DNA from: Streptomyces sp. IMTB 2501
GTDB taxonomy: Bacteria > Actinomycetota > Actinomycetes > Streptomycetales > Streptomycetaceae
Direction: 5' to 3'
Length of the DNA stretch: 64,000 nt
NCBI RefSeq assembly: GCF_001953885.1
Contig: NZ_MQUS01000003.1
Span: 62,001-126,000, forward strand
Part shown: positions 7,422 to 15,893 of the stretch, piece by piece
Numbering within the stretch: position 1 is the stretch's first letter
How the letters are laid out: each line of letters begins with the position of its first letter
Notes under the pieces: generated by a model
What the model was told of the DNA's origin: nothing
Database searches by the model: none
Seen by the model: the letters and a program-made list of their open reading frames with translations, nothing else
Position numbers and translations under genes: made by a program

Positions 7422-9050
7422 TCAGGGTGAACTCCCCGGTGAGCCCGACGCCGAAGCGGAGGCCCCGCCCGTCGGGGTCTCCGTCGCCGTCTGCGAGCAA
7501 CTCACCGAGAACGGCACGGAGTTCGACGCCATCCGCACCGGGCCGCGCACCTTCACACTGATCTGGTCCTCGGTCGTCCCGCTGCCCGAGTACACCGTCA
7601 GGGTCACCCGCACCTTCTGCGTCCTGCCTCCGCCGGCCGGGAAGGGCAGCGTCCGCCACCCCGGGTCCGACACCGACCCGCGCGTCGACACCCAGCGGTA
7701 CTCCACCCGCGCCGGCAGCCGCCCCACCGTGAACGTCGCCGTGAAGGCCGGCGTCTGCGCGGCCGGCGGGGGACAGGTCCCGGAGTGCGTGGTGTGCGCG
7801 CCGGCCACGGTGACCTGCACGGACTGCGCCGGCTGCGTGCTCGGTGACGCGCTGGTGCTCGCGGCCGACGGCGTCCCGGTGTTCGAGTCGGTGCTGTCGC
7901 GCGCGGTCGGCGCGTGCGCGCTGTCGCTCGCCGAGGCGCCGCCCGCGTTCCCCCGGCCGCCGCCGTTGTCGCGGTGCAGCAGCGCGTACGTCAGCCCCGC
8001 CAGCGCGAGCAACACCGCGAGCAGGCCCGCCACCAGCACCACACCGGCCCGCCGGGGTCGTCCCGGCGCCGCGGACGTCGTCGTGCCGGACAGCGCCGGC
8101 GGGGTGGGAGAGGGCGGTTGGGGGTAGGCGGTGGCGTACTCCCGGTCCACGGCCGTCGGGGCGATGTACGGCGGCGGCAGTGGCATCGTGGCCGCGCGGG
8201 GCGTTCCTTCCCCGGAGAGGGCGCCCCCAGCCGCGACGATCCGCAGCTCGTGTTCCGCCCGCTCGGCATCCAGCCGCTCGGCGGGGTCCTTGCGCAGCAG
8301 CCCCTCGATGACCGGGGCGAGCGGCCCGGCCCGGCGCGGTGGCGGCAACTCCTCGTCCACCACGGCACGCAGGGTGCTGATCGGGGTGTCGTACCGGAAC
8401 GGCGAGACGCCCTCCACCGCCGCGTACAGCAGCACCCCCAGTGACCACAGATCGGACTCCGGCCCCGGTGTCCGCCCCAACGCCCGCTCCGGGGCGAGGA
8501 ATTCGGGGGAGCCGACCACCTCGCCGGTCATGGTCAGCGCGGAGCTGCCCTCGACCGAGGCGATGCCGAAGTCGGTCAGCACCACCCGGCCGTCGTTCGC
8601 GAGCAGCACATTGGCCGGCTTCACGTCCCGGTGCAGCACTCCGACGGCGTGCGCGGCACGCAGCGCGGACAGCACCTCGGCACCGATGTGCGCCGCCCGC
8701 TGCGGCGTCGGCGGACCCTCCGCCTCCAACTGGTCGGCGAGCGACAGCCCGCGCACCAGCTCCATCACGATCCACGGCCGGCCGCCCTCCAGCGCCACGT
8801 CGTACACCGTGACCACATTGCGGTTCGAGACCCGGGCCGCCGCCCACGCCTCGCGCTCCAGGCGTGCGTACATCCGCTCCACATCGGCGGCTGGCAGCCC
8901 GGCAGGGGCCCGCACCTCCTTGACGGCCACTTCGCGGTGCAGCACCTCGTCCCGGGCGCGCCACACCGTGCCCATGCCGCCCTCACCCAGCGCGGACAGC
9001 AGACGGTAGCGGCCCGCGATCACACGTTCACGGCCCGGCTCTTCGGACAC
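7422..9050 (-). CDS. Membrane Ser/Thr protein kinase (Hanks type)
   Basis: 542 aa from the GTG at 9050, preceded by GGGGG; an in-frame TTG at 9062 is a weaker alternative. The kinase domain occupies residues 1 to about 270. It has glycine loop GEGGMG (22-27), Lys44 in VAVKEV, catalytic HRDVKPANVL with Asp142, DFG Asp160 and SPEFLAPE. A Pro-rich juxtamembrane stretch follows, then one helix at about 336-358, a Ser/Thr/Pro linker and an extracellular domain of about 130 residues without PASTA repeats. That domain ends in a Ser/Gly/Pro tail. It probably senses an external signal and phosphorylates cytoplasmic proteins. Targets are unknown and it is not obviously in an operon. Confidence 0.92.
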   Translation of the reverse strand: MSEEPGRERVIAGRYRLLSALGEGGMGTVWRARDEVLHREVAVKEVRAPAGLPAADVERMYARLEREAWAAARVSNRNVVTVYDVALEGGRPWIVMELVRGLSLADQLEAEGPPTPQRAAHIGAEVLSALRAAHAVGVLHRDVKPANVLLANDGRVVLTDFGIASVEGSSALTMTGEVVGSPEFLAPERALGRTPGPESDLWSLGVLLYAAVEGVSPFRYDTPISTLRAVVDEELPPPRRAGPLAPVIEGLLRKDPAERLDAERAEHELRIVAAGGALSGEGTPRAATMPLPPPYIAPTAVDREYATAYPQPPSPTPPALSGTTTSAAPGRPRRAGVVLVAGLLAVLLALAGLTYALLHRDNGGGRGNAGGASASDSAHAPTARDSTDSNTGTPSAASTSASPSTQPAQSVQVTVAGAHTTHSGTCPPPAAQTPAFTATFTVGRLPARVEYRWVSTRGSVSDPGWRTLPFPAGGGRTQKVRVTLTVYSGSGTTEDQISVKVRGPVRMASNSVPFSVSCSQTATETPTGGASASASGSPGSSP

Positions 9051-9094
9051 GGGCGCCCCCAAGGCATGTCACGTGATTTCTCCACAAAAGTAGC

Positions 9095-10657
9095 TCAGCC
9101 CAGCGCGGATACGGCCCCCCTGAGCACCAATCCGGCACCCAGGGCCATGACGACCAGCGCGGACACGAGCGGCACCGACCGGCGTACCAGCGTGGCCACC
9201 GGATGGGCGGTCCAGCGCGGACGCCGCTCCAGCACCCGGGTCACCCCCGAGCCCAGCCGGACCACGGCGAACCCGGCCGCCGTGAGCGTCAGCGCGAGCC
9301 CGGCACCGTAGGCCACGACGAGCAGCAGCCCGAACCAGGCCTTCCCGAGCGCGGCGGCACCGACGAGGACGACCACGGCGGACGGACTGGGCACGAGCCC
9401 ACCGGCGAACCCGAGCAGGATCGTGCCGCGGAGGGTGGGGGCGGCGGGGTGGGTGTGGGTGTGACCGCCATGGGTGTGTGCGCCACCGTGGTGCTCGCCA
9501 TGGGTGTGCCCACCATGGTCGTGTTCACCATGGGTGTGCTCGCCATGGTCGTGTTCACCATGGGTGTGCTCGCCATGGTCGTGTTCACCATGGGTGTGCT
9601 CGCCATGGGTGTGCTCGCCATGGTGAACGGGGTGATGGTGGCGGGCGGACCACACCCTTCGTACGAGGCCGGCGCCGGTCGCGAGGACCAGTGCGCCGCC
9701 GGCGATGCCCAGCCAGGCGATCACCGAGGGCGTGGCGGCGGAACCGGCCGTGACGAGCAGGCCCAGAGCGACCACGCCGAGGGTGTGGGTCACCGTGACC
9801 GAGGCCGCCAGCGGCAGCACGTCCCGGGGCCGGGCCCGGCCCCCGCGCGCCGCCGCGGCCGCGGCCATCAGGGTCTTGCCGTGGCCCGGCGCGAGCGCGT
9901 GCAGCGCGCCGAGCACGACCGCGATGAGCAGCGCGAGCGCGGCGAAGCCGACGGTGAGGTCATGGCGGGCCACGAGGTCGTCCAGCGCACGGGTCCAGCG
10001 GTCGGCGCCGCGCGGCAGGACGGCGGCTCCCGGTTCCGCCCGCGGCTCCTCGGTGAGGGCCGGACCGCCGGGGCGCAGCCGTACGGAGGCGGCGGTGGTG
10101 TCGGCCGGGGAGGACAGCAAGTCCCTCGGATATGTGGTCAGTTCGTGCGAGACCGACGTCCTCGGTACGTCCGTCGCGGTGAGCGTCATACGGTCGCCGC
10201 GCGCGGTGATCTCCCGCCAGCCGGGCCCGGACCAGTTCGTCGCGCTGCGAAAGCCGAGGGCGACCGAGCCGGCCCGGGGAAGCGGCGCCGTCCAACGGCA
10301 CTCCACCCGCAGGGTGTTGAGACCCGCCTGCCCGGGGCGCAGGGCGGCCCGGCTGTCCCGCACGGTGAGGGGGACCTTACGACCGTTCACGGTCGCCTCG
10401 CTGCCCCGGGCGGCCTGCGCGCAGCGCTGCCGGGCCCACTCCGCCGTGCCCAGCCGCGCCATGTCCGGCTTGGCCTGGGTCGCCGGAATCTCGGCCAGGT
10501 CCTCGACATGGTCGACCCGTAGCCGGCCGGGCGCGGCGACGAGGCCGTCGTACCGGTTGACGGTGAAGTTGCCGAGGGGATGCGCGCTCGCCCCGGTGGC
10601 GGGCAGGAGCACGAGGGCGCACACGGCGCCGAGGACGAACGCGGGACGCAGCCTCAC
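9095..10657 (-). CDS. NicO/HupE-type metal transporter with extracytoplasmic N-domain
   Basis: 520 aa. A signal sequence ends at SAHPLGNFTVN, the start of a soluble extracytoplasmic domain (about 25-230) typical of actinobacterial HupE/UreJ-type proteins. The membrane part follows with HALAPGHGKTLMAA, the NicO-type His motif, and GFAGGLVPSPSAVVV. A cytoplasmic or external loop at about 340-400 is a His/Gly/Asp repeat (HTHGEHDHGE) suited to binding Ni, Co or Zn. The GTG start overlaps the stop of the TPR gene (GTGA), so the two are coupled. Direction and metal of transport are not determinable; nickel/cobalt is the family norm. Confidence 0.85.
   Translation of the reverse strand: MRLRPAFVLGAVCALVLLPATGASAHPLGNFTVNRYDGLVAAPGRLRVDHVEDLAEIPATQAKPDMARLGTAEWARQRCAQAARGSEATVNGRKVPLTVRDSRAALRPGQAGLNTLRVECRWTAPLPRAGSVALGFRSATNWSGPGWREITARGDRMTLTATDVPRTSVSHELTTYPRDLLSSPADTTAASVRLRPGGPALTEEPRAEPGAAVLPRGADRWTRALDDLVARHDLTVGFAALALLIAVVLGALHALAPGHGKTLMAAAAAARGGRARPRDVLPLAASVTVTHTLGVVALGLLVTAGSAATPSVIAWLGIAGGALVLATGAGLVRRVWSARHHHPVHHGEHTHGEHTHGEHDHGEHTHGEHDHGEHTHGEHDHGGHTHGEHHGGAHTHGGHTHTHPAAPTLRGTILLGFAGGLVPSPSAVVVLVGAAALGKAWFGLLLVVAYGAGLALTLTAAGFAVVRLGSGVTRVLERRPRWTAHPVATLVRRSVPLVSALVVMALGAGLVLRGAVSALG
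9511..9600. repeat. Three tandem 30-bp units encoding the His-rich loop
   Basis: Three head-to-tail 30-bp copies at 9511-9540, 9541-9570 and 9571-9600 differ at one position in the first copy. A partial copy continues to about 9622. Each unit encodes ten residues of the HTHGEHDHGE type on the minus strand. The 30-nt length keeps frame, so slippage would change loop length without breaking the gene. Confidence 0.9.
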
Positions 10658-12129
10658 TTCGCGGCCTCCAGCGCCTTACGGGCCCGGGCGACGCCCAAGG
10701 GGGAGAAGCCCGGGTTCAGCTTCAGAGCCGAGGTCAGCGAGGCGCGGCCCGCCGTCCGGTGGCCCGTGGCCAGCTCGATCATGCCGCGGTGGTACAGGAA
10801 GGCGGCGTTTCGGTAACCGGTGGCGGTGGCCCGGCGGGCGTATGCCAGGGCCTCCGTGTCACGGCCGTTGACGTGCAGCGCCCAGGCCAGCGCGTCCGCG
10901 GTGTGCACGGTGTGCCGCCGGGCCCATTCGGCGCGGGCCGCGCGCAGGGCGGCCCCCTTGTCGCCGTGGTCGGCGGCGGCCAGCGCGGTGTCGAGGTCGG
11001 CGTTGACGCCGTTGGCGCGGGCCAGAGTGATCCAGGTGTCCACGAGGGCGTACTGCCGCCGTGCCCTGGCCCGGTCGCCGGCCGCGCCCCGCGCCTCGTA
11101 CAGCTCGCCCAGCTCGACGAGTGGGCCGGGCAGCGGATAACGGGACACCACCGTCTCCATCCCCTTGATCGCCGCCGCGCGGTCGCCGCTCGCCGCCTGC
11201 GCCCTTGCCCGGCCCTCCAGCGCCGGGAGGTAGGTGTCGTCGGCGGCGAGGGCACGGGCGTAGGAGGCGAGAGCGGTTCTGTAGTCGCCCTGGTTCCAGG
11301 CGAGTTGGCCGAGCTGGGCGGCCACGTACGCGATGTCGCCCGGCGAAGCCGCACTCGCCAGGGCCTGCTGCAGGACCCGGCGTGCCGTCGTCACGTCGCC
11401 GCGCAGCTCGTGCACGTACGCGTACCGCGTGAAAACGGGTACGCCCGGCTTGCGGGCGTCGGCGGTCTCGGCGGCCTTGGCCGCCTCGGCGTACCGGCCG
11501 AGTTCGACCAGGGCGTCGATACGGGAGGACAGGGCGCGCTCGCTGTACGGGTTCTGCCGCAGCGCCGCGTCCGCGTAGGTCAGGGCGCCGGTGAAGTCGT
11601 GCCGGGCGGCGGCGAGGGCGGCGCGGCCGGCCAGCGCCTGGTCGCTGTCCGGGGCCAGCGACAGGGACCGCTTCAGCGCCTGCTCCGCCTGCGGGTAGCG
11701 GCCGGGGTCGCCGTTGGTCCGCGCCTGCTCGACGTAGGCCAGGCCCAGGGTGGCCCAGCTGCCGGAGTCGTTGGGCTGGGTGCGCAGATGCGCCTGGAGC
11801 GCGGCGACCGAGGCGTCCAGGTTGCCGCCGCCCAGCACACCGGGGTCCACGGCACTGGAGGCGACCGGAACCTGGTCCGGCGCCCGACTCGCACCGACGG
11901 CGATCGCCCCACCGGTCAGCGCGACGGCCAACAGGGCCGCACACCCGGCGAGTCGCCCGGCCCGCCAGCGCCGCCCCGCGGCGGCGAACCGCCGGAAGGC
12001 GGCCACGCGAGTGTCGGAGGCGCAGGGTCCTTCAGAGCCCGGCGCCGTCCCGGTCGGCGGTGCCGTCCCGTCATGCTCCGGGTGCACCTGCCGCTCGTCC
12101 GCCTCGTCGTCGTTCGTACGCGGAGACAT
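10654..12129 (-). CDS. Membrane-anchored tetratricopeptide-repeat protein
   Basis: 491 aa from the ATG at 12129, with GAGGAG just upstream; the longer frame to 12288 lacks support. The N-terminal tail is acidic. One transmembrane helix (AGRLAGCAALLAVALTGGAIAV) is followed by repeated TPR-like helix pairs, for example SWATLGLAYVEQAR, ALAGRAALAAARHDFTGAL and AFLYHRGMIELATGHRTAG. TPR domains mediate protein-protein contacts, here probably outside the membrane. The gene lies between the DUF4331 gene and the transporter and is translationally coupled to the latter, so it may be an assembly partner. No enzymatic motif is seen. Confidence 0.82.
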   Translation of the reverse strand: MSPRTNDDEADERQVHPEHDGTAPPTGTAPGSEGPCASDTRVAAFRRFAAAGRRWRAGRLAGCAALLAVALTGGAIAVGASRAPDQVPVASSAVDPGVLGGGNLDASVAALQAHLRTQPNDSGSWATLGLAYVEQARTNGDPGRYPQAEQALKRSLSLAPDSDQALAGRAALAAARHDFTGALTYADAALRQNPYSERALSSRIDALVELGRYAEAAKAAETADARKPGVPVFTRYAYVHELRGDVTTARRVLQQALASAASPGDIAYVAAQLGQLAWNQGDYRTALASYARALAADDTYLPALEGRARAQAASGDRAAAIKGMETVVSRYPLPGPLVELGELYEARGAAGDRARARRQYALVDTWITLARANGVNADLDTALAAADHGDKGAALRAARAEWARRHTVHTADALAWALHVNGRDTEALAYARRATATGYRNAAFLYHRGMIELATGHRTAGRASLTSALKLNPGFSPLGVARARKALEAAK

Positions 12130-12238
12130 GGCCTCTCCTCGGTCGCCTGCTACTGGTCGGAAGGGGAAGGCGCGGCCCGCCGTGGGGGAGGGGAAGGTAC
12201 GGGCCGCGCCGGTCTGGGGTGGGGGCGGGGTTGGGGCC

Positions 12239-12362
12239 TGTCCGACGATTCGCGTCTGTCCCGCGACGCCTGGCACGCGCTCCCCCACGCTCGGCTTCGC
12301 TCGCGCGGGGAGCCCCCATCGCCGCGGGGCCCGCCCTCCGGGCGGACGGGAATCGTCGGACT
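12239..12362. repeat. Long inverted repeat enclosing a palindromic Streptomyces repeat
   Basis: GTCCGACGATTC at 12239-12250 and its exact complement GAATCGTCGGAC at 12350-12361 bracket about 100 bases. The enclosed stretch at about 12276-12321 is a palindromic element. It starts CGCTCCCCCACGCTCG and ends CCCCCATCG. A second copy of that element occurs at 23174-23218 inside hmgA. The structure lies between the DUF4331 and TPR genes and may act as a transcript attenuator or processing site. Confidence 0.7.
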
Positions 12363-12366
12363 GGCT

Positions 12367-13923
12367 CTAGTACGGGCGGCGGATGCGGCGGCGCCACCAG
12401 CCCACGGCGGTGCCGAGCAGCAGGATCCCGGCCGCGCCCGAGGCCGCCGACGCGGCGATCAGCACCGTGTTGCCGGAACCGCCCGAGCCGGAGCCGGCCG
12501 GCTGGAGGGCGTCACCGAGCTGGCTGCGCACGTCCGTGCCCGCGGTCGTGCCCTTGGCGAGCGGGCCGTGCGAACCGGAGTCGGGTTCGGCGACGTACGG
12601 GAAGGACTTCTCGAAGGTCCCGTCGGCCTTGTCGACCCCGTCGCTCAGGCCGGTCTTCTGGCCGACCAGTGCGCCCTCCATCACCTGGAGCGCCTCGTCC
12701 ACCACGTCGTCGGTGAGACGACGGCCGTTCGGGAAGCCCGCTTTGTCCCCGTCCAGGACGCCGAGCCGCTTGGGATGCATGCTCGGCTTGATCGAGGTGT
12801 TCAGGCGCAGTTCCTCCGAAGGACGCACGTTCGGCGGCTGGTTGAGGCCCTTCACGCCCTTCAGGAACACGTCGACCAGGTCGTTGCGGGGCTCACTGGG
12901 CGCCTTGATCTTGTAGATCGACTCGATGAGCTTGGGCAGCTCGGGGTTGGTGACGTTCTTCAGGAACTGGGCGTCGTAGGCGGGTTGGGACGCGTTGAAC
13001 TTGTCCTTGTCCTTCTGCGGGTTCACGACCTCGTTGACCAGCGGGTTGCCCAGCCGCGAGACCTGGGTGTAGTAGCCCTGGGCGTTGCGGCGCTGGGTGG
13101 TGGACCAGATGCCGACGACCGGCTGCTTCGACGACTCGCGGATCAGGTCGTTGGGCACCTGGAGGGCGATGGTGTTGACGTTGTAGCCCTTGAGGGTGTC
13201 GTTGCCGACCTCGCTGAGGTTGCCGCCGTACAGCAGGTCGAAGACGCGCAGGTCGGCGAAGAACGGGTCGGCCGCCTGCCCGGCGAAGGTCGTGGCGCCG
13301 CCCGCCGTCTTGTACAAGGCCTGCGCGCGCAGCTTGCCGTAGTCCGGCATGGACGCCTTGCCGACGTCCGACGGCGCGACCGGCACCTTGTCCGCGACCC
13401 TGGTCCTGTACACCTCGCGCCCGTGCTTCAGCCGGATCAGATCGATGTCGTACGTCTGCGTGATGTTGAGGTTGGGGTCGTCGAGGCTCTTCACGACGCC
13501 CGTGTTGTACAGGAACGTGTTGCCGTTCCTCGTGTGCGTCTTGAAGGTGTAGCGGAACAACAGGTCGTCCTGCGCGTCACCGTTGCTGTCGATGTGGATG
13601 TCGTACTGGGCGTCGTCGGCGAACGTGTAGAAGTTCGGTCCGCCCGCCGGTTCCTCGAACGGGATCCAGTTGGCCACGATCGTCGTCGTGTCGGGCTTGT
13701 CCGGGCTGGCGAACGCGTACAGGTCGGTGTTGTCGTACTGCGGCGTCCCCGAGATCAGCGGGGCCTCCCGGTGGGAGGAGGCGGAGGCCGCCTGGGGTGC
13801 CAGCGCGGTGACGCCGGCGGCGGTGAGCGCTCCGGCGGCCACCGCCCCGCAGATGAGCGTGACCAGGCCGGTGCGTCCCGGGCCGCGCCCGGAGAAGGGA
13901 CCCCTGGAGAAGAGAGGTGTCAT
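12367..13923 (-). CDS. DUF4331 family surface-exposed protein
   Basis: 518 aa. Start is the ATG at 13923 with GAGGA upstream; an in-frame ATG at 14019 would add 32 residues before the signal peptide. The signal sequence ends at PQAASASSHREAP, and SHREAP is the family's N-terminal signature. A beta-rich domain rich in Asp and Asn follows, with repeated motifs such as YDNTDLYAFASPD and DAQYDIHIDSNGD. The C-terminus has a Gly/Ser linker, a helix (NTVLIAASAASGAAGILLLGTAV) and a basic tail, as in membrane- or wall-retained proteins. No activity is established for the family. It is the first gene of the minus-strand trio, divergent from the sigma factor. Confidence 0.85.
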   Translation of the reverse strand: MTPLFSRGPFSGRGPGRTGLVTLICGAVAAGALTAAGVTALAPQAASASSHREAPLISGTPQYDNTDLYAFASPDKPDTTTIVANWIPFEEPAGGPNFYTFADDAQYDIHIDSNGDAQDDLLFRYTFKTHTRNGNTFLYNTGVVKSLDDPNLNITQTYDIDLIRLKHGREVYRTRVADKVPVAPSDVGKASMPDYGKLRAQALYKTAGGATTFAGQAADPFFADLRVFDLLYGGNLSEVGNDTLKGYNVNTIALQVPNDLIRESSKQPVVGIWSTTQRRNAQGYYTQVSRLGNPLVNEVVNPQKDKDKFNASQPAYDAQFLKNVTNPELPKLIESIYKIKAPSEPRNDLVDVFLKGVKGLNQPPNVRPSEELRLNTSIKPSMHPKRLGVLDGDKAGFPNGRRLTDDVVDEALQVMEGALVGQKTGLSDGVDKADGTFEKSFPYVAEPDSGSHGPLAKGTTAGTDVRSQLGDALQPAGSGSGGSGNTVLIAASAASGAAGILLLGTAVGWWRRRIRRPY

Positions 13924-14013
13924 GCCGTCCGTCCTCAGTGCCGACTTGCCTCTGACGGACGGGTCTTCGGAGCCGGCCGGCCGCTCGGATTGGTCGGCCG
14001 GAGAAAAACTTTT

Positions 14014-14023
14014 GGACATGTCC
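14014..14023. promoter_or_regulatory. Palindrome in the divergent DUF4331/sigma intergenic region
   Basis: A perfect 10-bp palindrome, GGACATGTCC, lies in the 210-base region between the DUF4331 gene (minus) and the sigma gene (plus). It could be part of a divergent promoter or operator. An ECF -35/-10 pair could not be assigned by eye. Confidence 0.3.
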
Positions 14024-14133
14024 CGACCCGCGTTTTCGGCCCGCTGATCCGTATCACCGGCCGGAGGTGTGCGTTCGTGCGGATGCGTGGAGTGCGCGGA
14101 GGGGCCGGATGCGGCCACGGAGAGGGGGCCCGC

Positions 14134-14676
14134 ATGCAGGCGGACGAGCTGCTGGTGCTCGTCGCGGGCGGCGACCAGAGAGCGTTCGAGGACCTGTACG
14201 CACTGGTGTCCGGGCCGGTGTACGGGCTCGTCCGGCGGGTGGTGCGCGACCCCGCCCAGTCCGAGGAGGTCGCCCAGGAGGTGCTGCTGGAGATGTGGCG
14301 TTCGGCCGCCCGGTTCGACCCCGGCCGGGGCAGCGCGCTGTCCTGGATCCTCACCCTCGCCCACCGCCGTGCCGTGGACCGGGTGCGCAGCGCCCGCGCG
14401 GCCGGCGAACGCGAGCAGCGGGAGGCCCTGCGCGCCGGGGAGCCCGCCTTCGACCAGGTCGCCGAGGAGGTCGAGGCCGGTCTGGAACGCGAATGGGTGC
14501 GCCGCTGTCTGCACCGGCTCACGGCCCTGCAACGCCAGTCCGTGACCCTCGCCTACTACGACGGCTACACCTACCGTGAGGTGGCGGAGCGGCTCGCGCT
14601 GCCGCTGGGCACGGTCAAGACACGGATGCGCGACGGACTCACCCGGCTGCGCGAGTGCCTGGGAGGAGCGGCATGA
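14134..14676 (+). CDS. sigK: ECF RNA polymerase sigma factor, SigK-like
   Basis: 180 aa. Region 2 runs from AFEDLYALVSGPVYGLV through EEVAQEVLLEMWRSAARFDPGRGSALSWILTLAHRRAVDRVRS. Region 4 is LTALQRQSVTLAYYDGYTYREVAERLALPLGTVKTRMRDGL, a helix-turn-helix. The ATG at 14134 has GGAGAGGGGG upstream; an in-frame ATG at 14083 is the alternative. The downstream anti-sigma gene overlaps by 4 nt. The family directs transcription of stress or envelope genes and is held inactive by its membrane anti-sigma factor. The divergent DUF4331-TPR-transporter operon is the obvious candidate target. Confidence 0.9.
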   Translation: MQADELLVLVAGGDQRAFEDLYALVSGPVYGLVRRVVRDPAQSEEVAQEVLLEMWRSAARFDPGRGSALSWILTLAHRRAVDRVRSARAAGEREQREALRAGEPAFDQVAEEVEAGLEREWVRRCLHRLTALQRQSVTLAYYDGYTYREVAERLALPLGTVKTRMRDGLTRLRECLGGAA

Positions 14677-15497
14677 GCATCCTGGGCAGGCTGCTGCGCC
14701 GCGAGGACCCGCACTCCCTCGCCGCGCCCTACGCGCTCGACGCCCTCGAACCGGACGAGCGGCGCCGCTTCGAGAAACATCTGCGGGGCTGCGACCGCTG
14801 TGCCGCCGAGGTGCGGGAGCTGGCCGAGGACGCCGTGCGCCTCGCCTGGTCCACGGCGGCCCCGCCGCCCGCCGCCCTGCGCGAGCGGGTGCTGGCCGCC
14901 GTGCGCACCACCGCGCAGGACCAGGCCCCGGACCGGACGCCGGCCCGGGAGCGCACGCCCCAGCTGCCGCCGCACGTCTGGGGCACCCAGCCCCCGCCGC
15001 GACGCACCCGTACGCCCCGCACGCGCCCGCTCTTCGTGCCGTTCGCCACGGCCACCGCGGCGGCGGCCCTCGTCGTCGCCTCCCTCTTCGCCGTCCAGGC
15101 GCACCGCACCCAGGACCGGCTCGACGCCGAGCGGTCCCGGGCACGTGAGATCGCCCACGTTCTGGCCGCGCCCGACGCCCGCACCGTCACCAGCGAGGAC
15201 GCGCGGGGCCGCGGTATCGGAGTGATCGCTTCCGCCTCGCAGCGGGAAGCCGTCGTCACCCTCAGCGGATACGGCACCCCGCCCGACGGCCGCGTCCGCC
15301 AGCTCTGGCTCATGCGCCCCCGCGTGCAACCGCGCTCCCTCGGGCTCTTCGCGGGCGACACGCCCTTGGTCGCGAAGGGTCTGGACTCCTCCTCGACGTC
15401 ACTCGCCGTAACCGTCGAGCCTGATGGCGGCTCAGCGCAGCCCACCGGCCAGCCCATTGTCCAACTCACCCTGAAATCGGTCGGATTCGGAGAGTAG
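14673..15497 (+). CDS. RskA-type zinc-binding membrane anti-sigma factor
   Basis: 274 aa, ATG overlapping the sigma stop (ATGA). The N-terminal ZAS-like anti-sigma domain has H-x3-C-x2-C at His36, Cys40 and Cys43 (HLRGCDRC). A Pro/Arg linker is followed by a single helix (LFVPFATATAAAALVVASLFAV) and an extracytoplasmic RskA C-domain (ITLSGYG-like VVTLSGYGTPPDGRVRQLWLM). Known members bind the cognate sigma factor and release it after regulated proteolysis. The overlap with the sigma gene gives stoichiometric expression. Confidence 0.9.
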   Translation: MSILGRLLRREDPHSLAAPYALDALEPDERRRFEKHLRGCDRCAAEVRELAEDAVRLAWSTAAPPPAALRERVLAAVRTTAQDQAPDRTPARERTPQLPPHVWGTQPPPRRTRTPRTRPLFVPFATATAAAALVVASLFAVQAHRTQDRLDAERSRAREIAHVLAAPDARTVTSEDARGRGIGVIASASQREAVVTLSGYGTPPDGRVRQLWLMRPRVQPRSLGLFAGDTPLVAKGLDSSSTSLAVTVEPDGGSAQPTGQPIVQLTLKSVGFGE

Positions 15498-15623: not shown

Positions 15624-15893
15624 ATGGATCAGATAACAATGCGCAGCAGGGCCAGGGTCCCTGCGATCACCTGCGGGAGCAGCGCGACCAGTTCGCGTCT
15701 GGACCGCCATCTCTCGGTGCTGGCGGGCCCCGCCATACCGCAGCGGGAGACGGTCGAGGCGACCTCGCTGATGCGCGAGCTGACGGCGCGTGACACCGCA
15801 CACCAGCGCAGTGACCGGGGCAGGCGGGTCAGCCGCGTCTCCCTGTTCGCACCGCTGCGCCGACTGCGGCGCTCGCTGTTCGGCGGCCACTGA
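15624..15893 (+). CDS. Small conserved Streptomyces protein
   Basis: 89 aa from an ATG preceded by GGGGAG. The protein is basic and ends in RVSRVSLFAPLRRLRRSLFGGH, an amphipathic Arg-rich tail. The middle, RLDHRHLS-like SSRLDRHLSVLAGPAIPQRETVEATSLMRELTARD, looks like a conserved actinomycete family the author recognises only by pattern. No function is known. The longer frame from 15558 lacks a ribosome-binding site. Confidence 0.65.
   Translation: MDQITMRSRARVPAITCGSSATSSRLDRHLSVLAGPAIPQRETVEATSLMRELTARDTAHQRSDRGRRVSRVSLFAPLRRLRRSLFGGH

Follow-up and report, generated by a model that had tools for sequence, protein, structure and literature searches.

Introduction

Among the closest described systems are metal permeases with a histidine-led outer domain. 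PMC12537917 describes "anglerase" domains, which begin with His1 and are joined to HupE/UreJ-2 permeases, gives a Kd for Cu2+ of 62-74 nM, and proposes that the domains capture metal for the permease; structure 9GCE is a Cu-bound Ang-1 domain from that work. Here we analyzed a stretch of 64,000 nucleotides from Streptomyces sp. IMTB 2501 (contig NZ_MQUS01000003.1, positions 62,001 to 126,000; hereafter the window), in which positions 9095-15497 hold five genes: a NicO-family permease, a tetratricopeptide repeat (TPR) protein and a DUF4331 protein on the minus strand (the trio), and, divergent from them on the plus strand, the extracytoplasmic function (ECF) sigma factor SigK with its anti-sigma factor RskA. 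We propose, with confidence evenly balanced between belief and doubt, that these genes form an envelope module, switched by SigK/RskA, that would capture extracellular Cu(II) or Ni(II) for a permease with an exposed His1. The proposal draws on computed gene order, a promoter-like motif, folds and His positions, and on the prediction that DUF4331 proteins expose X-X-His at their mature N terminus by two different processing routes.

The features of the locus, in window coordinates, are as follows (a slash marks predicted cleavage).

9095..10657, minus strand: NicO-family permease, 520 aa (PF03824, 37.8 bits, cut-off 27.7)
Parts of NicO: signal peptide 1-25 (...TGASA/HPLGNF), outer domain ~26-205, His-rich HGEHTHGEHDHG loop, NicO membrane domain
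10654..12129, minus strand: TPR protein, 491 aa (several TPR models above their own cut-offs)
12135..12366, minus strand: hairpin-bearing stretch in the DUF4331-TPR gap (strong hairpin, z -3.1)
12367..13923, minus strand: DUF4331 protein, 518 aa (PF14224, 537 bits, model positions 1-421 of 421)
Parts of DUF4331: signal peptide ending ASA/SSHREAPLISG, DUF4331 domain, C-terminal hydrophobic segment and basic tail (both judged by eye)
13966..13993, minus strand: promoter-like motif CCAATCC-N16-CCGAA, oriented towards DUF4331
14134..14676, plus strand: ECF sigma factor SigK (NF007228, 290 bits, cut-off 226)
14673..15497, plus strand: anti-sigma factor RskA with H-x3-C-x2-C (RskA_C 106.7 bits, RskA_N 32.5 bits, NF052375 186 bits)

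An earlier reading of this DNA from its letters alone (the sequence-only reading) had named the five genes and their families, and the matches to PF03824, TPR models, PF14224, NF007228 and RskA_C/RskA_N bear it out; the motifs it had pointed to, H-x3-C-x2-C (as HLRGCDRC), HPLG and SHREAP (as SSHREAP), are all present. It had also described the trio as one coupled unit. This holds for TPR and NicO, whose genes overlap by 4 bp (10654-10657), but less well for DUF4331, which lies 237 nt from the TPR gene with the strong hairpin in between. The rskA open reading frame (ORF) likewise overlaps sigK by 4 bp.

A histidine at predicted mature position 3 of DUF4331

DUF4331 matches were found in 38 of 198 genomes of the phylum (37 above the cut-off), in 92 of 150 genomes of the family, and in 33 records of a plasmid collection, 11 of which were inspected. 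We compared 100 DUF4331 loci (L031-L130), made up of 20 stretches from the phylum genomes and 80 named loci, the latter being the best 80 of 594 confirmed stretches and biased to Streptomyces. Seventy are of the Streptomyces type and 29 are others, including a second Streptomyces copy (L036); a signal-less paralogue (L037) stands outside the 29. One further stretch, L158, was under the cut-off, had no homologous reading and was dropped.

The motif SHREA was present in 99 of the 100 loci, the exception being L037. In an alignment of 20 phylum-wide sequences (A1) SSHREA is invariant, and no His other than the one in this motif is. Of 119 distinct proteins, 117 have Ala directly before the motif, and the residue at -3 is mostly small, as at signal peptidase I sites; these proteins were chosen by the motif, so that only the flanking residues count as evidence, and the filter lost L120 (A/SSHREA) and L099 (A/ASHREA). 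Cleavage after this Ala would leave Ser-Ser-His as the predicted N terminus of DUF4331. Two loci depart from the pattern: L138 has Ser at -1, and in L026 a Met followed by SSHREA comes directly after a stop codon, possibly through a frameshift.

The second predicted route is seen in 32 distant members, found with a hidden Markov model and not by the motif (12 lower-scoring matches from the phylum and 20 of the listed family-genome matches, with the near-identical L148 and L150 both counted). In 26 of them an ATG, GTG or TTG, as read from the letters, stands directly before S/A-X-His (SHH, SDH, SNH, ADH), and removal of Met before S/A-X-His would expose X-X-His. Five others have a signal sequence ending in QA or EA followed by Gly-Gly-His (A/GGH), and L156 is unclear. 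One DUF4331 branch (L159-L163) combines an RR-containing signal sequence, possibly of the twin-arginine translocation type, with a classic Gly-Gly-His start.

The residues after the His vary across the distant members (HLD, HLS, HFD, HFT, HIS), while the His stays at predicted mature position 3. The amino-terminal copper- and nickel-binding (ATCUN) pattern is H2N-X-X-His, and a constant distance of the His from the predicted mature end is what such a site, built from the amine and His3, would require. The processed N terminus could instead be a structural or docking tag, recognized, for example, by export machinery or by the TPR protein, in an envelope-stress-induced surface or adhesion system. 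Such a tag would account for the invariance in A1 of the three residues that follow the His (R, E and A), which exceeds what ATCUN needs; adhesion would suit the beta-rich fold of the DUF4331 model, whose best match is the starch-adherence protein Sas6 (Z 8.7, weak), and the sortase and fasciclin genes that follow in one plasmid locus. Since the distant members change the following residues and keep the His, and since this His is the only invariant one in A1, we consider the tag rather unlikely.

No known fold was assigned to DUF4331: the best Foldseek match has an E-value of 0.05, the Sas6 match is the weak one just given, and a sequence search of the PDB was empty. A literature search, with most subscription journals and preprints outside its scope, returned no paper on DUF4331, PF14224 or SHREAP.

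Conservation of the gene order

Of the 70 Streptomyces-type loci, 64 contain the trio and 55 have the full set of five; in the remaining six the trio is incomplete, several of these stretches being short. The usual order is RskA< SigK< DUF4331> TPR> NicO>, commonly with a kinase gene after it and a small ORF before it. In the window these flanks, which recur in many Streptomyces-type loci, are a Ser/Thr kinase gene (7422-9062) and an 89-aa ORF without a Pfam match (15624-15893). Across the 29 other loci, DUF4331 and TPR lie on the same strand in 27, and in 19 NicO is on that strand as well; nine have no NicO match, for which contig ends or divergence may be responsible. ORF clustering in these 29 loci gave, besides the trio, a sigma/anti-sigma cluster of 15 loci, a 3-locus cluster with RskA-like members, and a 6-locus cluster in which some members resemble ABC-type (ATP-binding cassette) ATPases and others are out-of-frame ORFs.

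A similar order with a different permease occurs in Pseudomonadota. DUF4331, a TPR-like gene and HupE/UreJ follow one another in Lichenicola (two plasmids), a Comamonadaceae, Marinobacter and Pseudoalteromonas, in some with a small ORF in between, and the order thus spans alpha-, beta- and gamma-proteobacteria. Four of these TPR-like proteins were scanned, two being above a TPR-type cut-off and two weak; Pfam confirmed HupE_UreJ_2 in both permeases scanned. In Pseudoalteromonas, genes for an ECF sigma factor and an RskA_C anti-sigma factor stand in front of the DUF4331, TPR-like and HupE genes. DUF4331 followed by TPR was also found in Adhaeribacter (Bacteroidota) and Miltoncostaea. The gene order to which the sequence-only reading had given a functional meaning is therefore kept in other genera, and the trio, with a HupE-type permease, in other phyla.

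A Streptomyces anulatus plasmid (L132) has the order DUF4331, TPR, nickel transporter, DUF4331, sortase, fasciclin; the annotation of this stretch includes no sigma gene. In mycobacteria mpt70, a known SigK target, encodes a fasciclin-domain protein. In three Rhodobacterales loci DUF4331 lies within a type II secretion gene cluster with no annotated TPR or permease gene alongside. These loci, on Sulfitobacter, Jannaschia and Paracoccus plasmids (L137, L140, L141), also have an adjoining prepilin peptidase gene, and their DUF4331 may be cargo of a dedicated secretion system. Small lipoprotein-like ORFs follow DUF4331 in several proteobacteria (L136 8532-9044, L134 8499-8804, L135 8431-8676, L140 8542-8772, L141 8570-8794), and one of them carries a bacterial immunoglobulin (Ig) domain.

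The DUF4331-TPR gap of the window contains a long inverted repeat (12237-12364). With up to 3 mismatches allowed, the hairpin arms match six sites of the genome, namely the two arms themselves and four others, two of which also form an inverted pair (C9:60954-61092). The repeat may be a small mobile palindromic element.

The NicO permease and its outer domain

Every one of the 84 loci that gave a NicO match has HPLG, preceded by Ala in 83 and by Gly in one; in L067 the NicO gene is split across two frames. Cleavage at this point, as the sequence context suggests, would place His1 directly after the signal peptide. In 42 aligned outer domains H1, P2, L3, G4, D28, A30, E31, E124 and other residues are invariant; the rows were chosen by HPLG, which fixes H1-G4 by choice but not the acidic residues. 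The His-rich loop of the window protein has 28 His within 75 residues.

The AlphaFold2 (AF2) model of the outer domain has a predicted local distance difference test score (pLDDT) of 92.3. The Cu-bound Ang-1 domain 9GCE was its top match both in Foldseek (E-value 2.3e-4) and in VIA-align (Z 8.5 over 138 residues, root-mean-square deviation 3.7; runner-up 7bgo, Z 7.1), and by this match the outer domain appears to be of the Ig-like beta-sandwich type. The permease is not of the HupE/UreJ-2 family (PF13795), its membrane domain being PF03824. On the strength of the model, the outer domain may nevertheless work like that of an anglerase permease, though it is not filed as Ang-1 or Ang-2.

The main competing explanation reverses the direction of transport: NicO would pump Ni, Co or Cu out of the cell, and the TPR protein would help to load DUF4331, itself a metalloenzyme or surface metalloprotein. 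NicO/RcnA proteins include exporters, and the sole NCBIfam match of this NicO is the Ni/Co efflux model NF007454 (RcnA), at 110.9 bits below its cut-off of 195. A role in maturation would fit two sub-cut-off matches, of NicO to DsbD_2 and of the TPR protein to a CcmH/CycH TPR model (cytochrome c biogenesis), and the permease-free DUF4331 genes of the type II secretion loci suggest that DUF4331 may be an end product. Yet the outer domain looks like the metal-capture domain of permeases for which PMC12537917 proposes uptake, and no catalytic fold was recognized for DUF4331 in a model of middling quality. By analogy we favour uptake because of the anglerase precedent, and regard export with maturation as unlikely, though as the strongest of the alternatives.

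Association with the sigma factor

Of the 29 other loci, 13 have a gene for an ECF sigma factor no more than 1.5 kb from the trio, where about 1.4 would be expected from 775 sigma-70 region-4 matches in ~63.6 Mb (15 genomes), a density that may be undercounted in the largest genomes, where 150 candidates were scored. The corresponding P of ~3e-10 comes from a simple density model that takes the loci as independent, and is too small given the relatives among them. Four arrangements occur: five sigma genes are upstream on the same strand, four upstream on the opposite strand, three downstream on the opposite strand and one downstream on the same strand. Because the ECF gene re-associates with the trio in different arrangements, the adjacency points to function rather than to an inherited neighbourhood.

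When 58 Streptomyces-type intergenic regions, that of the window among them, are aligned, conserved blocks stand out. One is the start region of DUF4331, with GAGGACGG upstream of the likely start at 13923. Facing DUF4331, the strict motif CCAATCC-N15/16-CCGAA was found in 39 of the 58 regions, and shuffles that preserved base composition only gave 0.005 per set. A slightly wider form occurs in 43 of the 70 Streptomyces-type loci and in 7 of the 29 others (against 0.08 expected, as estimated from the remaining sequence of these loci), among them three Nocardioides loci without a SigK match in the stretch. The own 9.99-Mb genome has three copies of the strict motif. We infer that SigK reads this motif, which resembles the mycobacterial SigK consensus (CCATCC...CCGAAT); a literature search gave no source for that likeness. 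Autoregulation of SigK through the motif was considered and rejected, since even a relaxed form faces sigK in only 4 of the 58 regions, versus 52 of 58 towards DUF4331.

The sigma pair could also be an independent neighbour that exerts no control over the trio. Such a reading would explain why 16 of the 29 other loci lack an ECF gene at this distance (1.5 kb or less) and why the trio is kept without a SigK/RskA match in the stretch in nine of the 70 Streptomyces-type loci (L092, L097, L102, L103, L106-L108, L110 and L111, six of the nine also without the promoter-like motif). It does not explain the recurrent adjacency in four arrangements, with the P given above for loci treated as independent, nor the conserved motif facing DUF4331, and we consider it very improbable.

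Which metal

We compared the 31 phylum genomes with a full-length DUF4331 with the 167 others of the 198, which include seven with a partial match. Nickel superoxide dismutase (Ni-SOD) is present in 24 of 31 versus 38 of 167, CopC in 26 of 31 versus 77 of 167, hydrogenase in 11 of 31 versus 67 of 167, and urease in 12 of 31 versus 26 of 167, the last not significant once the own genus is excluded. These co-occurrences are confounded by oxygen use, because all 31 DUF4331 genomes have COX1; within the 115 COX1-positive genomes Ni-SOD occurs in 24 of 31 versus 35 of 84, in sets compiled by hand. The sequence-only reading had suggested Ni, Co or another metal. A role in metal handling is strengthened by the anglerase-like His1 domain and the predicted X-X-His, whereas Ni or Co is not singled out, Cu fitting equally well.

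A proposed mechanism

In the module that we propose, RskA would hold SigK until a signal frees it; in view of the two SigK cysteines, this signal could be redox. Free SigK would then transcribe DUF4331, and probably or perhaps also TPR-NicO. Signal peptidase would expose Ser-Ser-His, an ATCUN-type site, on a surface-anchored DUF4331, whose N terminus would bind Cu(II) or Ni(II) and pass the metal to His1 of NicO. From this His1, on an anglerase-like domain above the membrane channel, NicO would take the metal on, while the TPR protein, which has an apparent N-terminal membrane anchor (judged by eye), would scaffold the DUF4331-NicO pair. Cleavage, metal binding, hand-over, uptake direction and SigK control are the steps that we infer.

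Several observations weigh against this proposal, besides those already discussed with the alternatives. The AF2 model of DUF4331 reaches a pLDDT of 67.8 and a predicted template modelling score (pTM) of 0.71 with low confidence at the N terminus, and the TM-scores of the 9GCE match to the NicO outer domain are modest (0.37/0.40). Co-occurrence, tried as a means of choosing the metal, was positive for both Ni-SOD and CopC and did not separate copper from nickel. The strict motif is missing from 19 of the 58 intergenic regions and faces sigK in none of the 58; the wider form, whose definition was settled only once a looser version had been tried, is absent from 27 of the 70 Streptomyces-type loci and 22 of the 29 others. 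Another strict copy in the own genome, with N15 (L145 6756-6782, that is C1:189755-189781), stands ahead of a gene resembling an anti-sigma factor gene, with another ECF gene close by, which suggests cross-talk or a shared promoter type. DUF4331-TPR-NicO is not secure as one coupled unit here because of the 237-nt gap and its strong hairpin. Finally, there are many relatives among the 29 loci (Actinomadura, Nocardioides), and their counts are not independent events.

More broadly, the DUF4331 superfamily could be a hitherto unrecognized class of metalloproteins with an obligatory processed N terminus, S/A/G-X-His. Secreted members would acquire extracellular copper or nickel under ECF control together with His1 permeases (NicO in Actinomycetota, HupE in Pseudomonadota), and signal-less members would be intracellular. 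We put this forward tentatively, and somewhat less firmly than the module itself.

The proposal poses a concrete and cheap question for a widespread domain of unknown function (DUF), namely whether the His3 of its processed N terminus binds Cu or Ni. It would widen the anglerase concept of 2025 by bringing in a second family of permeases, together with a probable partner at the cell surface and a switch through a sigma factor; if it is true, SigK outside mycobacteria gains a candidate target and a candidate signal. The argument from His position is applicable to other DUFs, by a search keyed on His3 instead of His1.

Comparison with known systems

The predicted mature N termini of DUF4331 (SSH, GGH, SHH, SDH, SNH and ADH) are like those of ATCUN peptides. 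Unlike in such peptides, the motif is near family-wide, belongs to a large folded domain and would be exposed by two processing routes. The His1 logic is shared with CopC-type copper proteins, whose N-terminal His is named in PMC12537917; CopC is a different Pfam family, and the listed CopC matches of the own genome are on other contigs (C34, C5).

SigK and RskA form a pair of the ECF18/19 type and belong to the same sigma and anti-sigma families as M. tuberculosis SigK/RskA, and Cys125 and Cys175 of SigK lie 50 residues apart, as do Cys133 and Cys183 there, a likeness of spacing only (PMC7509140 and PMC4821874). A known target of M. tuberculosis SigK is mpt70, whereas here the neighbours are the DUF4331/TPR/NicO trio.

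The likeness to the Ang-1 and Ang-2 anglerases lies in a His1 exposed by signal peptidase, here by prediction, and in a beta-sandwich outer domain placed before a metal permease. Five proteobacterial DUF4331 loci with an annotated HupE/UreJ, two of them confirmed by Pfam, share this feature, with a His right after the Ala at the apparent end of the signal peptide. The window differs from anglerases in that its permease is NicO (PF03824) and is accompanied by DUF4331, TPR and an ECF link, partners not named in the consulted parts of PMC12537917. What would be new here is that His1-permease logic is joined to a second permease family, with DUF4331 as possibly a new metalloprotein family.

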